A stretch of DNA of 26,191 nt from a virus: IMG/VR virus record IMGVR_UViG_3300042473_000438, positions 1 to 26,191 of that record, one strand, 5' to 3'. This document shows positions 3,020-24,253 of this stretch, piece by piece. The position numbers and the translations under genes are program-made. The notes beneath the pieces were generated by a model that was given only the letters and a program-made list of their open reading frames with translations, was not told the DNA's origin and did not search any database. Position 1 is the first letter of the stretch. Every line of letters starts with the position of its first letter.

Positions 3020-3037
3020 TTTATTAGTAGCCCCCTA

Positions 3038-3457
3038 CTAAATATCTATTCTGTCAACACTGGATGACAAATAAGTTACCTCTTCACCATATGAGACTGA
3101 ATCAAAATCAATGTCATGAATTGCATTCTGTGCAGATTCCTCATCACGAGCATTAACTGTAATTGAATATTGAACGGTTACCTCTAGTTCAAATTCTTTT
3201 GATAATTCAAAACCGCAAATGTTTGCAATTTCTTCTGCAGTGCTTTCATCAATGGTACCGTGCTCCATTGCTTCCAAGGTCCACTCTTGCATTTCGTTAC
3301 GCATGCGAGAGCGCTCTGCAGCCTCGCCGTATGAGCGCTGAGTTACTGTTTGGATGTGCTCTTCAAGTTGCTGAATGCGCTTCTTGTTTTCTACTAATTG
3401 AGTTTCTAAAAACTCTCGTGTCATGTAGTGATTGTCTACTTTTGTTACTTGGTCCAT
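3038..3457 (-). CDS. coiled-coil hypothetical protein (139 aa)
   Basis: ATG 3457 has AAAGAGG upstream, and promoter D gives a leader of about 25 nt. Residues about 12-60 are a charged heptad-like coiled coil (ETQLVENKKRIQQLEEHIQ). The C-terminal 50 residues are beta-rich with a pattern (ELEVTVQYSITVNARDEESA) seen in many small phage proteins that end in a strand-helix-strand module. Function unknown. It is transcribed alone, and a stem-loop element follows its stop. Confidence 0.8.
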   Translation of the reverse strand: MDQVTKVDNHYMTREFLETQLVENKKRIQQLEEHIQTVTQRSYGEAAERSRMRNEMQEWTLEAMEHGTIDESTAEEIANICGFELSKEFELEVTVQYSITVNARDEESAQNAIHDIDFDSVSYGEEVTYLSSSVDRIDI

Positions 3458-3489
3458 GGGGGCCTCTTTCTGTTTGTTGGTTTACATTA

Positions 3490-3512
3490 ATTATACTGGG
3501 TACCACTGACAA
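3490..3512 (-). promoter_or_regulatory. TTGTCAG-class promoter D
   Basis: TTGTCA (3512-3507), 11 bp, TATAAT (3495-3490) on the minus strand. Here the box is part of a perfect 12-bp palindrome TGACAATTGTCA (3507-3518), which the other copies lack. Confidence 0.65.
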
Positions 3513-3532
3513 TTGTCAAGGGCCCTTGCGGG

Positions 3533-3556
3533 GAGCAGTTTAGGATCTTACTCAGG
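3533..3556 (-). repeat. 24-nt stem-loop element, copy 3
   Basis: GAGTA/TGCTC stem (one G-U) around an 11-nt loop on the minus strand. Unlike the other copies it does not follow a recognisable gene; it closes a 98-nt non-coding stretch whose other end is copy 4. Confidence 0.65.
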
Positions 3557-3654
3557 ATCATCATCTCAGGCATACCCACGCATCATGGCCTGGGGCTTAG
3601 CAGAGATGAAACTCCACTCTATTTATTTAGCCACGCATTTCTGTGGTCGTGGTT
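3557..3654 (-). other. non-coding stretch between two stem-loop elements (possible small RNA)
   Basis: No frame longer than a few codons exists here on the minus strand. ATGCGTGG occurs twice, and CCACG can pair with CGTGG around 3631-3652. Being bounded on both sides by the conserved 24-nt hairpin, it could be a processed RNA or a decayed gene. Weak evidence. Confidence 0.3.
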
Positions 3655-3678
3655 GAGTAGTTTAGCGACATACTCAGG
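3655..3678 (-). repeat. 24-nt stem-loop element, copy 4 (covarying stem)
   Basis: Here the stem is GAGTA/TACTC, a compensatory change from GAGCA/TGCTC in the other copies. This is direct evidence that the RNA (or DNA) pairing is conserved. It lies 15 nt after the stop of the gene at 3694-4116. Confidence 0.75.
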
Positions 3679-3693
3679 TCGTTTATTATCTAA

Positions 3694-4116
3694 TTATAGA
3701 TAACGGGCAACGGCTTGATAAGTTGATGTGGAAACTGTTTCCTCATCTGTCATCTTTAGGATACGAATAGCATTAGAGATTTCCTCTTTCTGCTCACGAT
3801 AGTTGTAGATAGACATTGACTCAAAATCCTTTACAGGCTCTTTAGGCAAGTCCTTCTCTGATACTGTGAGGTCGAAGTCAATGTTGAGTTGATTGTTCCA
3901 AGAACGGAAGTTAGTGCGGAAGTTTTCTGCCTTTTTGATGTTTGCTACCGCATAGTCAATAAGTTCCTTTTTCCACTTTTCGTGTTGCTTCTGATACTTT
4001 GCTTCATTTGCTTCTTGTGATGTGTAATTGACTTCTAGTGTAGCAAGTGCTTGCTCTAGTGCCTTGATTACCTTTGGTGTTGCGATTTTAACTGAGATTG
4101 CTTTCTGTCGTGCCAT
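3694..4116 (-). CDS. Lys/Glu-rich helical protein (140 aa)
   Basis: ATG 4116 is preceded by AAAAGGAAC. The protein is highly charged and mostly helical (residues 10-70 like a coiled coil: ALEQALATLEVNYTSQEANE), with no Cys, signal or membrane span. No promoter is visible between it and the gene at 4197-4361, so both are probably on one transcript from the promoter at 4407-4436, with stem-loop copy 5 between them. Family not recognised. Confidence 0.75.
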   Translation of the reverse strand: MARQKAISVKIATPKVIKALEQALATLEVNYTSQEANEAKYQKQHEKWKKELIDYAVANIKKAENFRTNFRSWNNQLNIDFDLTVSEKDLPKEPVKDFESMSIYNYREQKEEISNAIRILKMTDEETVSTSTYQAVARYL

Positions 4117-4158
4117 TGGGTCTGTTCCTTTTCTGTTTAGTTTGTTAGGGGGTTGGTT

Positions 4159-4182
4159 GAGCAGTTTGTATTCTTGCTCAGG
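4159..4182 (-). repeat. 24-nt stem-loop element, copy 5
   Basis: Perfect GAGCA/TGCTC stem and 11-nt loop, 14 nt after the stop of the 54-aa gene and before the 140-aa gene. Its place inside an apparent operon argues against a simple terminator role. Confidence 0.7.
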
Positions 4183-4196
4183 AATTAGTAATTAGA

Positions 4197-4361
4197 TTAC
4201 TTAGCCGTCCAAGTTGTATAGCGAGCCTGTCCATTGACATCTAACTTAACACGAACATTTCCGTTAGCCTGTGGGTTAATCTCTGTGATTACACCTGTGA
4301 CCTTTGACTTCTGTGTTGTGAAAGTATCGCCTACCTTGTAAGTTGCTGTTGCTACTGCCAT
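4197..4361 (-). CDS. small SH3/KOW-like beta protein (54 aa), paralogue 1
   Basis: The frame starts at ATG 4361. The core Y-K-V-G-D-T-F-T-T-Q-K (residues 8-18) and V-T-G-V-I align clearly with the protein of 4468-4638 (Y-Q-I-G-D-L-F-T-T-S-K, then V-T-G-R-I). The short beta-rich layout with an 'xVGDxF' turn suggests an SH3-like or KOW-like barrel; this fold is inference. A canonical promoter lies 46 nt upstream. Confidence 0.75.
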   Translation of the reverse strand: MAVATATYKVGDTFTTQKSKVTGVITEINPQANGNVRVKLDVNGQARYTTWTAK

Positions 4362-4406
4362 TTGTTTATTTCCTTTTCTGTTAGAGGGTTGTTTTCGTTA
4401 TACCTA

Positions 4407-4436
4407 AGTATAACATTTTGGGGATAAAAATGTCAA
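4407..4436 (-). promoter_or_regulatory. canonical sigma-70-type promoter
   Basis: Minus strand TTGACA (4436-4431), 18 bp, TATACT (4412-4407). No TTGTCAG box. Drives the genes at 4361-4197 and 4116-3694. Confidence 0.75.
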
Positions 4437-4467
4437 ATCCATTTCTGACATTTCTCACAATGTGAGA

Positions 4468-4638
4468 TTACTTAGATGTCTTAACCATAGCCAAGCGACG
4501 AGAGCCGTTTGCTAGTACGAGAGAAACTCTAGTAACCTTATTATTGATTGGTGAGAAACCTGCAATACGACCTGTAACGCCTGTCTTGCTTGTTGTGAAC
4601 AAATCACCAATTTGGTATGTGTATCCATGTAGTGTCAT
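4468..4638 (-). CDS. small SH3/KOW-like beta protein (56 aa), paralogue 2
   Basis: I choose ATG 4638 (MTLHGYTYQIGDLFTT...) because GAAAGG lies upstream and the promoter at 4675-4703 would sit inside any longer frame. It is a tandem paralogue of the 54-aa protein of 4197-4361. A 15-bp palindrome (TCTCAC-ATT-GTGAGA, 4453-4467) touches its stop codon and could form a short hairpin. Confidence 0.75.
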   Translation of the reverse strand: MTLHGYTYQIGDLFTTSKTGVTGRIAGFSPINNKVTRVSLVLANGSRRLAMVKTSK

Positions 4639-12701: not shown

Positions 12702-13097
12702 ATGCCTATTCATTCATCCCTGACTTTTGGTGCTGATCCAGTAACCATGCAGTGGAGTGTTGTCAGAGGGGATACTGCTACTTTAAGAGTAGAGTTTTAT
12801 GAAGACAATGAAGTAGATTATTACGATACTTCTGGATGGATTTTTAGAGCAACCGCTTATGATCAATCTGGTAATGTTCTAGATGCCCTTGAATGTGAGC
12901 CTAGCGAGGGATTTGTAGATATTACAGCATACCCATCGGTTACAAAAAATTGGGGATCTAAATACTCTTCAATCGTGGCTCAATTACCATTTGATGTCCA
13001 GGTAACAATTCCAGAATTAATAGAAGACACAGTTTGGACTCCTGTAATTGGAACCATACATGTATTAGGCGACATTACACCAGGGGGTACACTATAA
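12702..13097 (+). CDS. small tail/baseplate beta-sandwich protein (131 aa), BppU-N-like
   Basis: ATG 12702 is chosen over the in-frame TTG at 12630 because a -10 ends 6 nt before it. The signature W-S-V-V-R-G-D-T-A-T-L-R-V (residues 18-30), followed by strands and an acidic loop, recurs in the protein at 23178 (W-T-V-V-R-G-D-S-A-A-F-R-V) and, more loosely, in 15308 (Y-Y-K-G-D-T-F-E-F-R-I). The layout resembles the N-terminal domain of BppU-type baseplate proteins that dock receptor-binding parts; this is inference. Its TAA overlaps the next ATG. Confidence 0.6.
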   Translation: MPIHSSLTFGADPVTMQWSVVRGDTATLRVEFYEDNEVDYYDTSGWIFRATAYDQSGNVLDALECEPSEGFVDITAYPSVTKNWGSKYSSIVAQLPFDVQVTIPELIEDTVWTPVIGTIHVLGDITPGGTL

Positions 13098-14548
13098 TGG
13101 CAGTTATTAAGATTGTTCCAATGCCAGGCGCAGTTGGAGACAAGGGAGACGAAGGAGCCGTAGGCCCTCAAGGCCCACAAGGAGCACAAGGTTTGCAAGG
13201 AGTGCCAGGTGCTGATGCACTATGGAGTTACAATGGCCAATGGCAGAGCAATGCTTCATATGCCGAAGGTGATGTCGTAACTTATCAGGGACAACTGTAT
13301 TACACAAAGTCAGTTACAACTGCTGGAACACTTCCAACCAATACTACTAAGTTTGATTTAATTGCATCAAAGGGTGCAGATGGACAACCAGGTACAAACG
13401 GTACAAATGGTACAAATGGTGCAAATGGTGCAGATGCACTTTGGAATTACACGGGAGAATACAGTAGCGGAGCATCATATGCCGTTGGAGATATAGCAAC
13501 ATATGACGGACAACTTTGGTATCGCTACAACGCTAATGGTGGAAATGTTGGAGACACTCCTTCCCCAGGACTTTGGAATTTATTAGCAGCAAAGGGTGCA
13601 GATGGTTCTGGTGGAACAGCAAACACTGGAGATATAACTTTTGATGGTGTAAAAATTATTGGTACAGGAACAGCATCTGGTGATGGATCTAATAGAGGAA
13701 CAATAGACTTAGTTCCAGATGCAGATTTACTTACAAATCAATATCATGAAGATCAGTATTTAATTGTTGATCCTACCGCACCAAACCACATTCATATTCG
13801 TGCAGGTGGAACACAAGATGCTTCTGCTGCAGACCTATTTCTTGGCGGAGAAAGAAACAATGTTCGTGTTTCAGATGGCGGAAGAAGTGTAAGTGTTAGC
13901 ACAAGACCAAATACAGTTATTAACACATATACAAATCAAAATACAACAAGTAACACTTCTTTTGTAACAAGTAATGCATCAAGTATTTATATAGGGGATA
14001 CATTATTTTATGTAGGCGGAGATATAGTAACTGTTGATTCAATTACGCAGGACTCACCAAGTGCTGGTCTACAAACTATCACAGCAAACTTAAATGGAGC
14101 ACCAGCCTCATTTGTTGCAGGAGAACCGCATATATTTAGCCATGAAGAAGAATGGAATAACTACTGGCAGTTTACCCCAGATGGAACTCTTTCAGGACCA
14201 TCAATGGGTGGACTTAAAGTTTTAGGTTTATTAAATTCAGGTGATAATGATCTTGGTCTATATGCTAACGATGCAGACATATATCTACAGGCTTCTTCTG
14301 GAGCAGTAAATATTGCAGCGCCTGAAGTTACCATTACTTCAAATGCCGTTCCTTCTTCAGTAAATATCAACACATATAGTGGTGCAAAAATTAGTAGCGC
14401 AAGAACATCTGGCTATTCTGATGCAGACAAAGTTGTAGCAACACTTGGAGATTTACCAACGGGAGCAACAGGAACATTTGAAACTCCAGATAGTAAATTA
14501 GTTACAGTTACTAATGGAATCATTACATCTATAGAGTCACTTACTTAA
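13097..14548 (+). CDS. collagen-like tail fibre with two chitin-binding-like modules (483 aa)
   Basis: ATG 13097 overlaps the previous stop (TAATG). A Gly-X-Y stretch (about residues 14-38, GPQGPQGAQGLQGVPG) is followed by two similar modules (about 41-92 and 113-168) with the pattern W-N5-Y-N2-GD-N-V/I-N-Y-N-G-Q-L-Y/W-Y, which matches CBM5/12-type carbohydrate-binding modules. A Gly-Thr-Asn linker (GTNGTNGTNGANG) joins them. The C-terminal 300 residues are beta-rich and end in a trimerisation-like strand region. Likely a receptor-binding or capsular-glycan-binding fibre on the virion. Confidence 0.8.
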   Translation: MAVIKIVPMPGAVGDKGDEGAVGPQGPQGAQGLQGVPGADALWSYNGQWQSNASYAEGDVVTYQGQLYYTKSVTTAGTLPTNTTKFDLIASKGADGQPGTNGTNGTNGANGADALWNYTGEYSSGASYAVGDIATYDGQLWYRYNANGGNVGDTPSPGLWNLLAAKGADGSGGTANTGDITFDGVKIIGTGTASGDGSNRGTIDLVPDADLLTNQYHEDQYLIVDPTAPNHIHIRAGGTQDASAADLFLGGERNNVRVSDGGRSVSVSTRPNTVINTYTNQNTTSNTSFVTSNASSIYIGDTLFYVGGDIVTVDSITQDSPSAGLQTITANLNGAPASFVAGEPHIFSHEEEWNNYWQFTPDGTLSGPSMGGLKVLGLLNSGDNDLGLYANDADIYLQASSGAVNIAAPEVTITSNAVPSSVNINTYSGAKISSARTSGYSDADKVVATLGDLPTGATGTFETPDSKLVTVTNGIITSIESLT

Positions 14549-14568: not shown

Positions 14569-15300
14569 ATGGCTGTTTCTAAATCTATGGACTTTCCAGG
14601 TGCAAAAAAATCTTCGTATGCTGCACAAGTAGAACAAAGTCAAGCATCTCCTACTGTAGATAGTGCTCTTTCATTTCTTCCAGTCCCTGGCCCAGTTGGT
14701 CCACAAGGACCTGCAGGTAGAGATGGTAGAGATGGAAAGCAGGGACCTGAAGGACCAGAAGGAAAACCAGGTCCAAAAGGAGAAAAAGGTCCAGCAGGTA
14801 AAGACGGACTAAGTTCTTTGTCATCTTCAGGACAGCAAGCAGGATGGGCATCTTATACAAATACAATTACTAAACCAACAAAACTTGGAGTGTCTCAAGG
14901 AAATGATGGCTGGGTAACACTTTTATTAGATACAAAAGACAAAGAGCAAAATGAGACATACCTTCCTAAAGGTTGTACCAGCCTTTGGAATAGTCACCAG
15001 AGAGCCCTAAACTTCCACGGTATAAAAGAAGGCTCCCAAATATTCGTAACATACAACTTTGAACTAACTACCTATACAGCCAATACTGAGGTTTGGCTAA
15101 GGACATATTTTGCAAGCAAGGATCAAGAGTTTGTGCAATTAGTAGGGTCTTTAAAGTACCAGAATGTATATAACCTTTCAGTCACCCAAAACATATTTAT
15201 TGAAGACAAGTATATGTGGGGAAATGGTGCAGTTCCACAACTTAGAACAGACTTTGATGCCTCCGTAATCTTCAATTCTGTCTACGTCAGCGTGGTATAA
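14569..15300 (+). CDS. collagen-like tail protein (243 aa)
   Basis: After about 40 residues there is an unbroken run of about 13 Gly-X-Y triplets (starting GPVGPQGPAGRDGRDG and ending GPAGKDG), then a globular beta domain of about 150 residues with many Tyr and Thr. Trimeric collagen-like stems with a C-terminal head are typical of phage fibres. Prolines are mostly in the X position, with GKP placing one in Y, the site that prolyl 4-hydroxylases modify in animal collagen. Ends in the TATAAT that precedes the next gene. Confidence 0.8.
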   Translation: MAVSKSMDFPGAKKSSYAAQVEQSQASPTVDSALSFLPVPGPVGPQGPAGRDGRDGKQGPEGPEGKPGPKGEKGPAGKDGLSSLSSSGQQAGWASYTNTITKPTKLGVSQGNDGWVTLLLDTKDKEQNETYLPKGCTSLWNSHQRALNFHGIKEGSQIFVTYNFELTTYTANTEVWLRTYFASKDQEFVQLVGSLKYQNVYNLSVTQNIFIEDKYMWGNGAVPQLRTDFDASVIFNSVYVSVV

Positions 15301-16402: not shown

Positions 16403-18286
16403 GTGGCAGAAGAGAATATTGATAACACCGTTAGTGGTAGCGGACTCTTCAACACCAAAATCCCAGGTTTGTCAGATGCAGCGGATATTCAGGCAGCGTT
16501 AAGGCTTTATCACTACGGAACATATACATATGATGGTGCAAATACAGATCCATCAGTTCTTCCTATTCCTTCTATGGCTAAGCACCTTCAAAACCTTGTA
16601 GACGCAGATGCTGCAGAGATAGTAAACAGAAATGCTGCAATTGCCACACATAATGCAGCCACAACAAATGTTCACGGAATATTAAATACAGCAAATCTTG
16701 CAACAAAAGCATATGTAATTGATGAAATAAATAATTTTGCTGGAGGATACCCAGACCTAGCAGGAGCAGGTATTGACTGGAATGGTGTTGATGAACAGTT
16801 TGACATTGAGCCAAGAATTGTAAATTCTGGAACATTAATAACAAAAACATCTGATTTTATATTAGCGTCAGAAGATGTTTCTAAAACTATAATTTTAAAC
16901 GCATCTTCCCCTATCACATTAACTGTTCCGCTAAATTCTTCAGTAAATATTCCTATTGGATATCAATTTAATTTAATTGAAGTAGGACTAGGAAGAACAA
17001 CCTTTTCTCCAGTTTCTGGAGTCACAATAAATAGTAAAAATTCACAAATGTACATTGACTCACAATATGGCAAGGCAACACTTTTAAAAATTGATACAAA
17101 TTCTTGGATTGTCTATGGAGATATTTATGAGGGATCTACATCTTCTCCAACACCAACTCCAACTCCAACACCGACTCCAGCACCAACTTCAACTTTAACC
17201 CCAACACCAACACCAGTCCCACCATATTTCGTTCCTCCATTCTTCCCTCCATATTTTGTACCTCCATTCTTCCCACCAGACTTTACGCCTACAGCAACTG
17301 CAACCCCAACGCCTACAGCAACTGCAACCCCAACACCCACCGCAACTGCAACCCCAACGCCTACAGCAACTGCAACCCCAACGCCTACAGCAACTGCAAC
17401 CCCAACGCCTACAGCAACTCAAAGTAATGCTTACTGGTATACAGGTTGTTGTTCAACAACTGGCGCACAGGTTACAGGTTTGAGCAGTACAGAATTTACT
17501 GCAGCATATAACTCTATGATTGGTCAGTGCGTTGGAGAAGTTACAAACCAGCAAAGTGGAAATTATGGAACCATTCCAACAGTAAACTGTTCAGGACTTA
17601 CCTATTGTCCTTCACTAGGGTATAACGTACCTTCAAGTGGCTACCCAGGTAACTGTCCAGGTGCCTCACCAACAGATCCTACAGCAACACCAACTGCTAC
17701 TCCAACACCAACTGCTACTCCAACACCTACAGCAAGCCTTACCTACTGCCCTTCACTAGGATATAATGTTCCAACAAGTGGCTACCCAGGTAACTGTCCA
17801 GGTGCCTCACCAACAGATCCTACAGCAACACCAACACCAACGCCAACACCTACTCCAACCCCAACAACCACCGCAACTGCAACCCCAACCCCTACTGCAA
17901 CTGCGACACCAACACCTACCCCCGCTCCAGTACCTCTAACCTACTGCCCTTCACTTGGGTATAACGTACCTTCAAGTGGCTACCCAGGTAACTGTCCAGG
18001 TGCCTCACCTTCACCAACTACAGCACCACCTTACTTTGTTCCACCGTTCTTCCCACCTTACTTTGTACCTCCATTCTTCCCTCCATATTTTGTACCACCA
18101 TATTTCGTTCCACCTTTCTTCCCGCCTGACTTTACTCCTACATCAACACCAACTGAAACCCCAACCCCTACCCCCGCTCCAGTACCTTTAACATACTGCC
18201 CATCACTAGGGTATAACGTACCTTCAAGTGGTTACCCAGGTAACTGCCCAGGGTTTAGATTTGATGCAAATATAATAAATATGTAA
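16403..18286 (+). CDS. proline/threonine-rich tail fibre with repeated Cys modules (627 aa)
   Basis: GTG start at 16403 with a good ribosome-binding site. Residues 1-240 look like a tail-attachment region (KIPGLSDAADIQAAL) ending in a small beta domain. From about residue 244 come long low-complexity runs: Pro-Thr repeats (TPTPTATATPTPT), VPPYFVPPFFPP repeats (near 273 and 547), and four copies of a 22-residue module with two Cys, YCPSLGYNVP...YPGNCPG, starting near residues 399, 446, 512 and 596. Such rigid Pro-rich stalks suit a surface fibre and are natural targets for prolyl hydroxylation and O-glycosylation. The modifying enzymes follow directly. Confidence 0.8.
   Translation: MAEENIDNTVSGSGLFNTKIPGLSDAADIQAALRLYHYGTYTYDGANTDPSVLPIPSMAKHLQNLVDADAAEIVNRNAAIATHNAATTNVHGILNTANLATKAYVIDEINNFAGGYPDLAGAGIDWNGVDEQFDIEPRIVNSGTLITKTSDFILASEDVSKTIILNASSPITLTVPLNSSVNIPIGYQFNLIEVGLGRTTFSPVSGVTINSKNSQMYIDSQYGKATLLKIDTNSWIVYGDIYEGSTSSPTPTPTPTPTPAPTSTLTPTPTPVPPYFVPPFFPPYFVPPFFPPDFTPTATATPTPTATATPTPTATATPTPTATATPTPTATATPTPTATQSNAYWYTGCCSTTGAQVTGLSSTEFTAAYNSMIGQCVGEVTNQQSGNYGTIPTVNCSGLTYCPSLGYNVPSSGYPGNCPGASPTDPTATPTATPTPTATPTPTASLTYCPSLGYNVPTSGYPGNCPGASPTDPTATPTPTPTPTPTPTTTATATPTPTATATPTPTPAPVPLTYCPSLGYNVPSSGYPGNCPGASPSPTTAPPYFVPPFFPPYFVPPFFPPYFVPPYFVPPFFPPDFTPTSTPTETPTPTPAPVPLTYCPSLGYNVPSSGYPGNCPGFRFDANIINM
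17130..18286 (+). repeat. Pro-Thr, PPYFVPPFFPP and Cys-module coding repeats
   Basis: Near-identical DNA repeats (ACTGCAACCCCAACGCCTAC type, several tandem copies at 17290-17420) encode ATATPTPT. Four copies of the Cys module at 17597, 17738, 17936 and 18188 are alike even in codon choice, which suggests recent expansion by recombination or slippage. Confidence 0.85.
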
Positions 18287-18317
18287 TACCTTGGTTGCAT
18301 AACAAAATGTAATCGTG

Positions 18318-18323
18318 TATAAT
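18318..18323 (+). promoter_or_regulatory. promoter of the modification cassette
   Basis: TATAAT (18318-18323) with a leader of about 20 nt and a purine-rich ribosome-binding site (AGGGGAAG) before ATG 18351. Confidence 0.5.
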
Positions 18324-18350
18324 AGAATCAACTATAAGCAAGGGGAAGAT

Positions 18351-18557
18351 ATGTCAAAATCAAGGTGGGAAGAATACAAAGAAAAAAATCAAGGCATTGT
18401 CTCTGATCTTTCAAAAGAAGATCCTTTAAAAAGGTTAAGCATATGCAACTCGTGCGAGCACTTAATAAAATTAACAAAAGAATGCAAAAAAGACAAATCT
18501 TTTGTTCTTGAAACGGTAAAAATAAAAGAACAGCAGTGTCCAATAGGAGCCTGGTAA
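18351..18557 (+). CDS. small Cys-rich cassette protein 1 (68 aa), degenerate
   Basis: ATG 18351 with AGGGGAAG upstream. It shares the layout of the proteins at 19150 and 22326 (ICNxC...LIxLTxxC...CPxGxW), which resemble the phage DUF6171-type small Cys-rich family (name from memory). Here the central CKxCxC is replaced by CKKDKS, so part of the metal site is lost. Its TAA overlaps the start of oxygenase 1. Possibly a zinc-binding partner of that enzyme; role unknown. Confidence 0.75.
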   Translation: MSKSRWEEYKEKNQGIVSDLSKEDPLKRLSICNSCEHLIKLTKECKKDKSFVLETVKIKEQQCPIGAW

Positions 18558-19153
18558 TGCATAAAGAAGAACTTGCTCCTGGAATTGCATTATATAGCGA
18601 CGTAATTCCTTCTTATAAAGAATTGATTGACAACATAGAGGACTCAACAACGCTTGGCACAATAAAATGGGGTAATGCTGAAGTTCACTCAGACGATAAC
18701 AATACTTTAAAGAAAGATACAAGAGACACATCTGTTATAGGTGTGCCATACAAGACAAACCTTTTAGAGGGATTCCCATATCCAGGCTCTACATTTGATA
18801 CAATTCTTTCATCTTTATTTTTTGAACATTTTGATCCAATAGAAAAAGATTATATAGGAGACTATAACTCAATAGTTGATTGGCATGACTCTTATGGAAT
18901 TTTAAAGTATGGAAAAGGACAGAAGTTTATAAATCATATAGATGATAGTCCTGCTGCTACAAGAAGAATATCAACAGTCTATTATTTAAACGATAACTAT
19001 TCTGGCGGAGAAATAAATTTTCCTAGGTTTGGAATAAAATTAAAACCAAAAGCAAATCAAATGATTCTGTTCCCATCTAGTTTCATCTATAACCATTCTG
19101 TAGATCCTGTTATTGATGGCATAAGATATGCTATAGTTAGTTGGTTAAGATGA
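18557..19153 (+). CDS. 2OG-Fe(II) oxygenase, prolyl 4-hydroxylase type (198 aa), copy 1
   Basis: ATG 18557 overlaps the previous stop (TAATG). The double-stranded beta-helix signature is complete: iron ligands H127-I-D129 and H180, and R190 ten residues past H180 to bind 2-oxoglutarate, in YGKGQKFINHIDD, VYYLNDNYSGGEINF and HSVDPVIDGIRYAIVSWL. This is the P4H subclass that hydroxylates proline using O2 and 2-oxoglutarate. Soluble, no signal peptide. Followed by an overlapping Cys-rich gene and a paralogue. Proposed substrate: the Pro-rich and collagen-like fibres encoded upstream (inference). Confidence 0.9.
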   Translation: MHKEELAPGIALYSDVIPSYKELIDNIEDSTTLGTIKWGNAEVHSDDNNTLKKDTRDTSVIGVPYKTNLLEGFPYPGSTFDTILSSLFFEHFDPIEKDYIGDYNSIVDWHDSYGILKYGKGQKFINHIDDSPAATRRISTVYYLNDNYSGGEINFPRFGIKLKPKANQMILFPSSFIYNHSVDPVIDGIRYAIVSWLR

Positions 19154-19371
19154 GCCTTGAAGAATATAAAGAAAAAAATGGGGTTACTCCATTTGATTTA
19201 ATAAATCCAAAATCTCCTAGATCTTCAGAAGACTTAAAAAAAGAAAGAATGAGTATTTGTAATGATTGCCCAGAACTGATAAAGTTGACTACACAGTGTA
19301 AGCAATGTCATTGCATAATGTATTTAAAAACTACTCTTGAAGAAGCAAAATGTCCATTAGGAAAGTGGTAA
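19150..19371 (+). CDS. small Cys-rich cassette protein 2 (73 aa)
   Basis: ATG 19150 overlaps the TGA of oxygenase 1. Cys layout: CNDC, then C-KQC-HC (CKQCHC) and a last Cys in CPLGKW, a full set for zinc or another metal. It precedes oxygenase 2 by 2 nt, so each oxygenase has its own Cys-rich partner gene directly upstream. Resembles DUF6171-type phage proteins. Biochemical role unknown. Confidence 0.8.
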   Translation: MSLEEYKEKNGVTPFDLINPKSPRSSEDLKKERMSICNDCPELIKLTTQCKQCHCIMYLKTTLEEAKCPLGKW

Positions 19372-19373
19372 AA

Positions 19374-19976
19374 ATGAAAAAAGAAGAAATAGCACCAGGA
19401 CTAATAGTCTATAGCGATGTAATTCCAAATAGTTTAAATCTTAAAAATGACATAGAAGAAGGAGTTGCATCCTCTGGTCTTTCTTGGTTACCAGCCTATG
19501 TTGCAGAAGCAACCAATGATGCAAAGGTTAATTCAAAAACAAGAGACACTGATTCTATAGGGATTCCATATAATGGTGGAGTAAAAGAACTTTCTGGAAA
19601 TGTTTTGTCAGAAATTTTCAAGACAAGTCTAGGAAACATATTTTTTGAACATTTTCATCCAGTAGAGCAAGACTACATGAGTTCTTATGGCATTGGGTGG
19701 GGATGGCATGATGAGTACAGTGTTTTAAGATATGGAAAAGGACAACACTTTACAAATCATATAGATGATCATCCAAATTACCCAAGAAGAACATCAACTG
19801 TTTATTATTTAAATGATGATTACGAGGGTGGAGAAATAAATTTTCCAAGATTTAATATAACCTTAAAACCAAAGGCCAATCAAAAGATAATCTTCCCTTC
19901 AAACTATGTGTTTAACCATTCTGTTTCTCCAGTAGTTTCTGGAACACGATATGCAGTAGTAAGTTGGCTATTCTAA
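19374..19976 (+). CDS. 2OG-Fe(II) oxygenase, prolyl 4-hydroxylase type (200 aa), copy 2
   Basis: ATG 19374, 2 nt after the previous stop. Clear paralogue of copy 1, with the same catalytic set: H129-I-D131, H182 and R192. Both keep the same opening (K-K/E-E-I/L-A-P-G) and the WHD...YGKGQ block. Divergence outside the core, mainly in residues 30-90 that form the substrate lid in P4Hs, suggests different peptide substrates, for example collagen-like versus Pro-Thr repeats. This last point is inference. Confidence 0.9.
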   Translation: MKKEEIAPGLIVYSDVIPNSLNLKNDIEEGVASSGLSWLPAYVAEATNDAKVNSKTRDTDSIGIPYNGGVKELSGNVLSEIFKTSLGNIFFEHFHPVEQDYMSSYGIGWGWHDEYSVLRYGKGQHFTNHIDDHPNYPRRTSTVYYLNDDYEGGEINFPRFNITLKPKANQKIIFPSNYVFNHSVSPVVSGTRYAVVSWLF

Positions 19977-19999
19977 TATGAAAAGGAAAATATAATAAA

Positions 20000-20674
20000 A
20001 TGAAAGAAATGTTAGTTATAATTCCATCAAGGAATAGACCACAGGCAGTTGCAGAAATAACTGAGTCTTTGATGGAAAAATCAATAGGAGTAGATATTTG
20101 TTTTGGATTAGACGACGATGATACTTCTGAGTACACGTATGTTCCAGGAGTTATATATGAAAGAAATCCAAGAGTTTTAATGAATGCAACAAATAATATA
20201 CTTGCAAATAAATATGCTAACAGTTATAACTTTATCTGTTTTCTAGGTGATGACGTTAGACCAAGAACATTTGCTTGGGATAAGATACTTATAGAGCCAT
20301 TGAGAAATAAACCTGGAATTTCTTATGCAAACGATCTAATCCAAAAAGAATTTTTACCAACTCATGTTGCCATGTCATCAGAAATAATAAAGTCTCTTGG
20401 TTTTATGGCACCACCCGTTTTAAAACATTTATTCATGGATAATTTTTGGCTAGATCTTGGTAAAGCAATAAACTCAATACATTATTTTGAAAATGTTGTA
20501 CTTGAACACTTACACCCAGCATTAGAAAAATCTTCTGTTGACCAGGTATACCTAGAGTCTTGGGGTCTATTTGAACATGACAAAAATGCCTATGAAAAAT
20601 ACAAAGAAACAGACTTTTTACAAGATGTCGAAAAAATTATGAAGATGTACGAAAATCTTAATGATATGTCGTAG
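20000..20674 (+). CDS. GT2-like (GT-A fold) glycosyltransferase (224 aa)
   Basis: The opening MLVIIPSRNRPQAVAEITES is the nucleotide-sugar-binding start of GT-A enzymes. LDDDD (residues 37-41) and a second acidic motif FLGDDVRP (81-88) are candidate DxD metal sites. The C-terminal part (HLHPALEKSS...) resembles phage glycosyltransferases used for virion or DNA decoration. AAAGGAAAA lies upstream of ATG 20000 but is rather far. Could extend a sugar started by the GT60-like enzyme next door. Sugar and acceptor unknown. Confidence 0.75.
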   Translation: MKEMLVIIPSRNRPQAVAEITESLMEKSIGVDICFGLDDDDTSEYTYVPGVIYERNPRVLMNATNNILANKYANSYNFICFLGDDVRPRTFAWDKILIEPLRNKPGISYANDLIQKEFLPTHVAMSSEIIKSLGFMAPPVLKHLFMDNFWLDLGKAINSIHYFENVVLEHLHPALEKSSVDQVYLESWGLFEHDKNAYEKYKETDFLQDVEKIMKMYENLNDMS

Positions 20675-20684
20675 AGTTTTTTAA

Positions 20685-21581
20685 ATGGACAAGATATATG
20701 TTTCTATTGCCTCTTATAAAGATAAAGAGTTAGCAGATACTGTTTTTTCTATTTTGCGTCGTGCAAAAAATCCAGAAAGAGTTTTTGTTTCAATTTTTTC
20801 TCAAGATGAGACTCACCCACAATTAGAAAATATCTTTAGTTTGTTTGGAGTGCAGAATTTTTCTTATGAAAAGGTTCATTTTTCTGAAGCAAAAGGTGTT
20901 GGTTATGCAAGAAAAAAAACACAAGAAAAATTATCTTTAGATTTTAAATACTATTTACAAGTTGACTCACACACAAGATTTATACAAGACTGGGATAGCG
21001 TATTAATTTCAGAGTATACACAAAGTCAAGATTTTTGGAAGGTTCCAATAATCTTTTCATCTTATCCACTTCCCTATACATATGATAAAAATGGAAATGA
21101 AGTGATTACTGCAAGAGACAAAGCAAATTTTGTAAGTATTAAGCCTATTGAAGGGACTATGCTATATAAGGCAGAATATGAGGAAAGATCTATATCCAGA
21201 TATGGAGAACTTCATGGTCACTTTTGTGCTGGATTTGTTTTTTGCTTGTCTGAGTATATGCTTAGCGTTCCATACGACCAGAGGATTTATTTTATTGGAG
21301 AAGAGCACACAATGTCTGTTAGGTTTTTTTGTAATGGAATTTATATTATTGCTCCACAAAGATCTTATGTTTATCATCACTACTATGGAGTTCAGACAAG
21401 AGAAAAACATTGGGAGATAGATCCTAATTGGGGAGATTATGAAAAGGCTAGTTTTGATAGAATAGCAAAGTTTTTTTTGTTTGAGGAACTTGAAGGTTAT
21501 GGTATAAAAGATAAACCAAGATATGAATTATGGAAAAATAGATTTGTTGTTGAAAGTGAAAATATAAAAGAGTTGGGATAG
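20685..21581 (+). CDS. GT60/PF11397-like GlcNAc-transferase (298 aa)
   Basis: The sequence tracks the PF11397 family end to end: IYVSIASYKD at residues 4-13, ERVFVSIFSQD (31-41), AKGVGYAR (69-76), YYLQVDSHTRFIQDWD (89-104, with D94-S-H96 as the DxD-like metal motif), FIGEEHTMSVRFFCNG (203-218) and VYHHYYG (229-235). The characterised family member, Dictyostelium Gnt1, transfers GlcNAc to hydroxyproline on Skp1. Length is close to the catalytic domain alone. Lying 1 gene after two prolyl hydroxylases, it is the natural second step. No strong ribosome-binding site is visible before ATG 20685. Confidence 0.85.
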   Translation: MDKIYVSIASYKDKELADTVFSILRRAKNPERVFVSIFSQDETHPQLENIFSLFGVQNFSYEKVHFSEAKGVGYARKKTQEKLSLDFKYYLQVDSHTRFIQDWDSVLISEYTQSQDFWKVPIIFSSYPLPYTYDKNGNEVITARDKANFVSIKPIEGTMLYKAEYEERSISRYGELHGHFCAGFVFCLSEYMLSVPYDQRIYFIGEEHTMSVRFFCNGIYIIAPQRSYVYHHYYGVQTREKHWEIDPNWGDYEKASFDRIAKFFLFEELEGYGIKDKPRYELWKNRFVVESENIKELG

Positions 21582-21611
21582 CAGTCATATTCTGCCAGCC
21601 CAACCCTTTTT
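21572..21611 (+). terminator. intrinsic terminator after the cassette
   Basis: GTTGGG (21572-21577) pairs with CCCAAC (21599-21604), with inner GCAG/CTGC pairs and a 5-T tract at 21607-21611. The left arm overlaps the end of the GT60-like gene. Confidence 0.75.
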
Positions 21612-21622
21612 GTGTATTTACA

Positions 21623-22325: not shown

Positions 22326-22553
22326 ATGTCTAAATGGGATGATTGGAAGATTGCAAGCGGAACAACTAGGCCATGGCACCTATTAAATCCAAGCCAGTAT
22401 TCAAAAGAAGAGGCTTTAGCCAGGAAAAGACTTTTAATTTGCCAAGGGTGCCCACAATTGATTCAACTAACAACCCAATGCAAAAAATGTGGCTGCATAA
22501 TGAAATTAAAAACTAAACTAGAGGCTGCAACCTGCCCACTAGGTAAATGGTAA
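22326..22553 (+). CDS. small Cys-rich protein 3, DUF6171-like (75 aa)
   Basis: ATG 22326 with GGAGG 5 nt upstream. Full Cys set: CQGC, CKKCGC and CPLGKW, almost identical in layout to the protein at 19150 but without an oxygenase beside it. It sits between the lysozyme-like gene and the next tail gene, so this copy may serve the same pathway from a distance or have another job. Confidence 0.8.
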   Translation: MSKWDDWKIASGTTRPWHLLNPSQYSKEEALARKRLLICQGCPQLIQLTTQCKKCGCIMKLKTKLEAATCPLGKW

Positions 22554-23806: not shown

Positions 23807-24253
23807 ATGGCTAAAGTATCAATTCCATCAGTTAAGGCTCTATTTCAAACAGGTGATAGACCTACTCAAGAAAACTATGAAGATTTAATCGATACCGCTT
23901 CAGCACAGGCAACAGACCTTGGCTCAGCAGGTAACAATGAAAACACAATCACTGGTATTGAGAACGTAACTGTTATTGATAACTTTGACGCTACAGTTTG
24001 GCGAATGGTCAAGTATATTGTTTCAATATCAAAGACCACTGCAGGGGACAACAAGTTCTATGCAACCGAACTAACAATTCTCGTTGACGGTACAAATGTA
24101 AATGTCAGCGAGTATGGAACAATCGACAATGATGGGAATATTGGCACCATTAATGTCTCTCGCACTGGAAATACCGTGGCCTTAACAGTCACTCCAGACC
24201 CAGCGATCAAGCCAGTCACAGTTCGTTTCGCACGAATTGGACTTAAGGCATAA
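23807..24253 (+). CDS. tail fibre protein with shared C-terminal beta domain (148 aa)
   Basis: N-terminal 40 residues (SIPSVKALFQTGDRPTQENY) resemble a fibre-attachment segment. The rest (WRMVKYIVSISK..., LTILVDGTNVNVSEYGTI, TVALTVTPD) is the same fold as the last 90 residues of the 587-aa fibre at 24271 (YRSAEYLVKVAY..., VLLTLDSSDNIAITEYGIV). This domain is widespread at the ends of phage fibres. Virion protein, probably host-facing. Confidence 0.75.
   Translation: MAKVSIPSVKALFQTGDRPTQENYEDLIDTASAQATDLGSAGNNENTITGIENVTVIDNFDATVWRMVKYIVSISKTTAGDNKFYATELTILVDGTNVNVSEYGTIDNDGNIGTINVSRTGNTVALTVTPDPAIKPVTVRFARIGLKA

Follow-up and report, generated by a model that had tools for sequence, protein, structure and literature searches.

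Does a bacteriophage hydroxylate the prolines of its own tail fibres and then decorate the same fibres with sugars? The question is raised by the IMG/VR virus record IMGVR_UViG_3300042473_000438, which was analysed over its whole length of 26,191 bases (hereafter the window), and in which a gene for a Pro/Thr-rich tail-fibre-type protein is followed by two genes for 2-oxoglutarate (2OG)-Fe(II) oxygenases of the prolyl 4-hydroxylase (P4H) type and by two genes for sugar transferases. The original prediction had taken these five genes, which do lie contiguously on the plus strand, for a pathway of proline hydroxylation followed by hydroxyproline glycosylation. As judged from sequence comparisons and structure models, the locus is quite probably a fibre-decoration cassette; what emerges above all is a conserved cassette of hydroxylase and sugar genes linked to Pro/Thr-rich fibres, for which the transfer of N-acetylglucosamine (GlcNAc) to hydroxyproline is put forward as a hypothesis. 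The features concerned are the following:

16403-18286, plus strand: Pro/Thr-rich tail-fibre-type protein, the probable substrate, with (TP)n/(ATPTPT)n and PPYFVPPFFPP repeats
18351-18557, plus strand: small Cys-rich protein (phrog_13558 paralogue without some of the central Cys), its stop overlapping the start of P4Ha
18557-19153, plus strand: P4Ha, 2OG-Fe(II) prolyl-4-hydroxylase-type oxygenase (PF13640, 4.4e-17; HxD...H...R)
19150-19371, plus strand: small Cys-rich protein (phrog_13558, 4.7e-13)
19374-19976, plus strand: P4Hb, 2OG-Fe(II) prolyl-4-hydroxylase-type oxygenase (PF13640, 1e-17; predicted fold)
20000-20674, plus strand: probable small glycosyltransferase (phrog_14945; PHROG 'glycosyltransferase', 1.9e-47)
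20685-21581, plus strand: GT60/PF11397 polypeptide GlcNAc-transferase-like protein
about 21568-21612, plus strand: probable terminator, a hairpin (-16.5 kcal/mol, z -2.96) followed by U5
13034-14548 and 14569-15300, plus strand: two collagen-like fibre genes (profile and open reading frame search)
22326-22553, plus strand: third, stand-alone small Cys-rich copy (53% identity to the copy at 19150-19371)

Open reading frames (ORFs) were called mechanically; the starts of P4Ha and P4Hb were set by homologues at 18557 and 19374, and those of the ORF list differ (19350 for P4Hb). Along the plus strand the order is two collagen-like fibres, two small structural-type genes, the Pro/Thr-rich fibre, Cys-rich protein, P4Ha, Cys-rich protein, P4Hb, probable glycosyltransferase, GT60 and hairpin.

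Prolyl 4-hydroxylases and the adjoining fibre

Both oxygenases match PF13640 with 63-65 bits against a cut-off of 27, and the HxD...H iron triad together with the 2OG-binding Arg is present in the two window proteins, in all rows of the alignment and in 108/108 homologues from the corresponding slot of related phages (see below), so that their predicted identity as P4H-type enzymes with complete active sites can be upheld. The model of P4Hb has a predicted local distance difference test score (pLDDT) of 92.6, and the fold so predicted is that of a protein prolyl 4-hydroxylase: the top Foldseek matches are 4iw3, 2jig, 6t8m and 3gze (TM-score about 0.6-0.7), and the closest PDB structures are the Pseudomonas putida P4H with EF-Tu, the Chlamydomonas reinhardtii P4H including its (Ser-Pro)5 complex, Dictyostelium PhyA, PHD2 and, at rank 10, vCPH of Paramecium bursaria chlorella virus 1 (PBCV-1).

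The fibre encoded immediately upstream has 627 amino acids; it is similar to phage virion-protein PHROGs over residues about 146-241, and its final 387 residues contain 95 Pro and 86 Thr. In this tail, 65% of the 95 prolines are preceded by A, S, T or V and thus form clustered (A/S/T/V)-Pro repeats like those of plant arabinogalactan proteins (AGPs) and extensins. Among the dereplicated fibres of P4H-positive loci TPTP/PTPT is dominant, Pro being flanked by T, A or V, and such T/A/V-Pro-type dipeptides are the AGP-type dipeptides that mark arabinogalactan proteins in plants (PMC4908140).

Related loci were collected in three IMG/VR scans, with the P4H alignment, the GT60 alignment and the structural marker gene at 23807-24253 (more than 200 loci in all); each scan contributed the best 80 of a larger set, so the counts lean to close relatives, and the loci are metagenomic fragments, so that a gene missing from a contig need not be missing from the phage. 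When loci were chosen on the P4H sequence alone and had at least 2 kb of upstream sequence, a Pro-rich ORF was found within five genes upstream in 39/41 non-redundant P4H relatives, as compared with a base rate of 18/726 (2.5%) elsewhere. The synteny of fibre and P4H that the original prediction expected in other phages hence holds across dozens of them, and the sequence evidence for a link between the two is strong. All six cassette genes (two for small Cys-rich proteins, two for P4Hs and two for transferases) are under purifying selection (dN/dS, the ratio of nonsynonymous to synonymous substitution rates, 0.01-0.19 between the window and the related locus L006), which, together with the recurrence of the gene order in relatives, argues that the arrangement is not due to chance.

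The ORFs for the small Cys-rich proteins at 18351-18557 and 19150-19371, missed in the original prediction, stand one ahead of each P4H gene with overlapping or near-abutting ends; these proteins are possibly an accessory factor. Small Cys-rich genes also stand ahead of GT60 in relatives without P4H. Two relatives, L006 (17645-20829) and L013 (12865-16526), carry a second Pro-rich fibre with P4Hs of its own and DUF6065/phrog_7084 genes.

Sugar-transfer genes in an exchangeable slot

With respect to the two transferases, the proposed GT60/PF11397 identity of 20685-21581 is borne out by a profile score of 132 bits against a cut-off of 21, and D94-S95-H96 (DSH) of this protein, a DxH-type motif which we take to be the GT60 metal-site motif, is invariant across five diverged phage members. 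The gene at 20000-20674 had been called GT2-like; its similarity to PHROG 14945 supports a glycosyltransferase but not GT2 membership, as the match to PF00535 (GT2) stays below the cut-off (E = 0.03, 14.7 bits, cut-off 23.3), which makes that label weak, and its AlphaFold model (pLDDT 51.5) is too poor for classification. The hairpin and U5 at about 21568-21612 fit the predicted closure of the cassette by a terminator; a terminator consensus scan that allowed loops of at most 8 passed over this hairpin.

Beyond the hairpin lies a lysozyme-like gene on the opposite strand, and what lies between it and the fibre forms an exchangeable slot. In the 121 loci with both flanks, its clusters comprise P4H (108 genes), small Cys-rich protein (98), a 190-amino-acid protein (54), GT60 (50), GDP-mannose-dehydratase/epimerase-like (50), O-fucosyltransferase (O-FucT)-like (28) and JmjC/cupin-like proteins (18), and also GT11-like, GT61, SGNH-like (by eye), radical SAM plus SPASM and sulfotransferase genes. 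Because relatives hold GT60, O-FucT-like, nucleotide-sugar, GT61, GT11-like, sulfotransferase or radical SAM genes in it, the slot appears to have a sugar function. Exchange of this sugar half between relatives would imply that the glycan varies, with hydroxylation usually retained. Sequence and comparison show the families to which the genes belong, the residues of the active sites, the fold of the P4H, the synteny with Pro-rich fibres and the exchange of modules.

In L027 (4250-5185), L060, L061 and L171 the radical SAM plus SPASM protein is encoded between P4H and GT60, and in L220 between the small Cys gene and GT60; its presence in the slot suggests an additional fibre modification. The 190-amino-acid protein (cluster 2; e.g., L010 8213-8794) often follows P4H or takes its place beside Pro-rich fibres; it has no Pfam match, and its PHROG label 'ferrochelatase' looks unreliable. 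Profile comparison gave no relation to P4H for either this protein or the cupin-like protein (cluster 7), which were both rejected as P4H relatives, and cluster 2 is therefore left unclassified.

The protein encoded at 1792-2886 shares 50-53% identity with proteins of large Streptomyces phages. An actinobacterial host is therefore likely for this family of environmental phages; a phage database search returned no near DNA relative of the window.

Substrate, acceptor and rival explanations

In the proposed pathway, P4Ha and P4Hb would act on the fibre of the gene immediately upstream, hydroxylating proline residues within its (T/A/V)-Pro repeats, GT60 would then add a sugar, probably GlcNAc, to the repeat region, on hydroxyproline and/or threonine, and the small glycosyltransferase may lengthen the glycan. 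The sugar half would be swapped among related phages with hydroxylation usually kept, and the benefit may be that fibres are stiffer or protease-resistant, or that surface recognition is altered. We infer the substrate of the cassette, the order of steps, the sugar, the acceptor residue and the benefit. The claim of a phage pathway that decorates its own fibres stands with regard to the PF11397 match, fibre-P4H synteny and P4H-GT60 coupling; the hydroxyproline-GlcNAc step has the rank of a hypothesis, and the case for a collagen-like substrate is weak.

That GT60 acts on hydroxyproline is favoured by its coupling to P4H in unrelated lineages. A Burkholderiales metagenome-assembled genome (L266) encodes a fused GT60-P4H protein (PF11397 1.5e-53, PF13640 1.5e-16); this fusion (1132-2997) is followed by one of GT60 and a methyltransferase (3029-4600). 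Further P4H-GT60 fusions were found neither among 300 sampled Burkholderiales genomes nor in the viral loci retrieved, and L266 is the only chromosomal GT60 locus with P4H. In phages of the L341/L381 type, P4H stands directly ahead of a protein that combines O-FucT and GT60 domains, the P4H and GT60 of L341 having just 27-28% identity to those of the window. The distant phage L368 (4665-9415) combines an (SPTP)n fibre, P4H, a protein of the PF23452 hydroxyproline arabinosyltransferase (HPAT) family (3e-12) and GT60, and L413 (1297-5071) has P4H, an HPAT-like protein just below the PF23452 cut-off and a (TP)n fibre; another PF23452-family phage protein is encoded at L412 7001-7831.

Several observations weigh against the pathway as proposed. 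In loci L099-L108, GT60 is found in a window-type locus without P4H, next to poly-Thr and mostly Pro-poor fibres, and nine of these contigs, the longest of 73 kb, gave no match to PF13640, PF13661 or PF13759. In other phages GT60 directly follows a (TP)n fibre, and no PF13640 match was detected on contigs of up to 140 kb, nor one to PF13661 or PF13759 where both were searched. From GT60 without P4H beside poly-Thr or (TP)n fibres it follows that GT60 has no general need of hydroxyproline. Furthermore, in the marker-selected sample P4H is only weakly associated with GT60 (7/8 GT60-positive vs 21/36 GT60-negative complete slots), the Pro and Thr contents of P4H-positive fibres show no difference with or without GT60 (p 0.39, 0.31), the 12 fibre groups with neither enzyme are also Pro-rich (median 0.245), several having the 190-amino-acid protein in the place of P4H, and PHD-type enzymes are able to act on EF-Tu.

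Accordingly, the fibre might carry two separate modifications, P4H acting on Pro and GT60, in mucin style, on Thr with no need of hydroxyproline, a reading that has a substantial though clearly minority probability. It fits the poly-Thr fibres of L099-L108, whose GT60s (46-47% identity) are the nearest well-sampled P4H-less group to the window clade in the tree, as well as the (TP)n phages without a detected 2OG oxygenase, and the GT60 family takes in both hydroxyproline- and mucin-type (Ser/Thr) enzymes, the mucin-type enzyme of Trypanosoma cruzi amongst them (PMC6939170, PMC8724618). However, the L266 fusion, the adjacency in unrelated lineages and the HPAT-family protein beside P4H and GT60 speak for glycosylation of hydroxyproline, the GT60s that accompany poly-Thr fibres are a clade apart and may use another acceptor, and the contigs may be incomplete. 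In the phage database, window-like GT60s were found only in XacN1 and two Stenotrophomonas phages, with no annotated oxygenase as neighbour. As the neighbourhood evidence points both ways, the predicted hydroxyproline step is kept alongside threonine: hydroxyproline has about an even chance of being the acceptor, threonine somewhat less, and any other residue would be a surprise.

It is unlikely that the cassette is directed at the host, with P4H acting on EF-Tu or another host protein and the transferases on the cell surface. Phage glycosyltransferases often change host surface polysaccharides, and the closest solved fold to P4Hb is the P. putida P4H bound to EF-Tu, but for host targets one would not expect the almost fixed position of P4H right after Pro-rich fibre genes, nor that fibre composition tracks oxygenase presence among GT60-positive loci (medians T 0.39, P 0.10 in five oxygenase-free groups vs T 0.24, P 0.26 in 22 oxygenase-positive groups; p = 3e-4 each, values that overstate independence as the five groups are interrelated). 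Less probable again is that the P4Hs mainly hydroxylate the upstream collagen-like fibres and stabilise triple helices. Collagen-like or Pro-rich peptides are substrates of the P4Hs of animals and PBCV-1, and two collagen-like genes are at hand, but their prolines are mostly in the X and not the Y position (9 X, 3 Y in the window; 170 X, 30 Y in the family), relatives without P4H retain collagen-like genes, and P4H adjoins the TP-rich fibre; the predicted collagen-like substrate is hence disfavoured. Returning to decoration of the Pro/Thr-rich fibre, it is a serious possibility, falling just short of an even chance, that several unrelated phage lineages encode a complete hydroxyproline-O-glycosylation pathway (P4H plus GT60, O-FucT or an HPAT-type enzyme) that would make plant-like hydroxyproline-rich glycoproteins of their Pro-rich fibres, the glycan half being an exchangeable cassette.

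Known systems and biological meaning

The PhyA-Gnt1 system acting on Skp1 in Dictyostelium and Toxoplasma likewise links a PhyA-like P4H fold genetically to GT60, with more transferases extending the glycan. It modifies, however, one Pro of a cytoplasmic ubiquitin-ligase subunit in oxygen sensing, in contrast to the likely repetitive fibre target and putative acceptor in the phage. Plant and algal AGPs and extensins share the clustered non-contiguous (A/S/T/V)-Pro repeats, here beside P4H, and an HPAT is found in L368; the window, in turn, lacks contiguous SP4-type repeats and has GT60 and an unclassified transferase instead of the plant galactosyl/arabinosyl set. The mucin-type polypeptide alpha-GlcNAc transferases of T. 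cruzi share with the phage system the GT60 family and Thr-rich acceptor-like repeats, which stand out in the relatives that lack P4H, whereas the window has an oxygenase linkage and alternating TP repeats. PBCV-1 vCPH is a virus-encoded P4H of the same fold, but from an algal virus, and we know of no GT60 cassette linked to it. Cyanophages S-SCSM1 and S-SCSM2R have oxygenases beside O-FucT, glycosyltransferase, carbamoyltransferase or radical SAM genes, and S-SCSM1 also the Pro-rich virion proteins gp019 and gp155, but belong to another phage family with another P4H subfamily and no tight fibre-P4H-GT60 block. In agreement with the original prediction, a literature search, in which subscription journals were thinly covered, found no described phage pathway for hydroxyproline glycosylation.

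What viruses do with their many prolyl 4-hydroxylase genes has been described as cryptic (PMC9301287). The placement of P4H beside TP-repeat fibres provides a concrete substrate candidate for these enzymes, the exchangeable sugar cassette offers an explanation of why environmental phages have so many glycosyltransferases, and relatives with P4H and GT60, with P4H only or with GT60 only form a ready comparison set. By analogy with the cell-wall proteins of plants and algae, the locus suggests that these phages add hydroxyl groups and sugars to their own fibres. If hydroxyproline is indeed glycosylated, phages would join plants, algae and protists as bearers of this modification, and virion stability and recognition would be affected.

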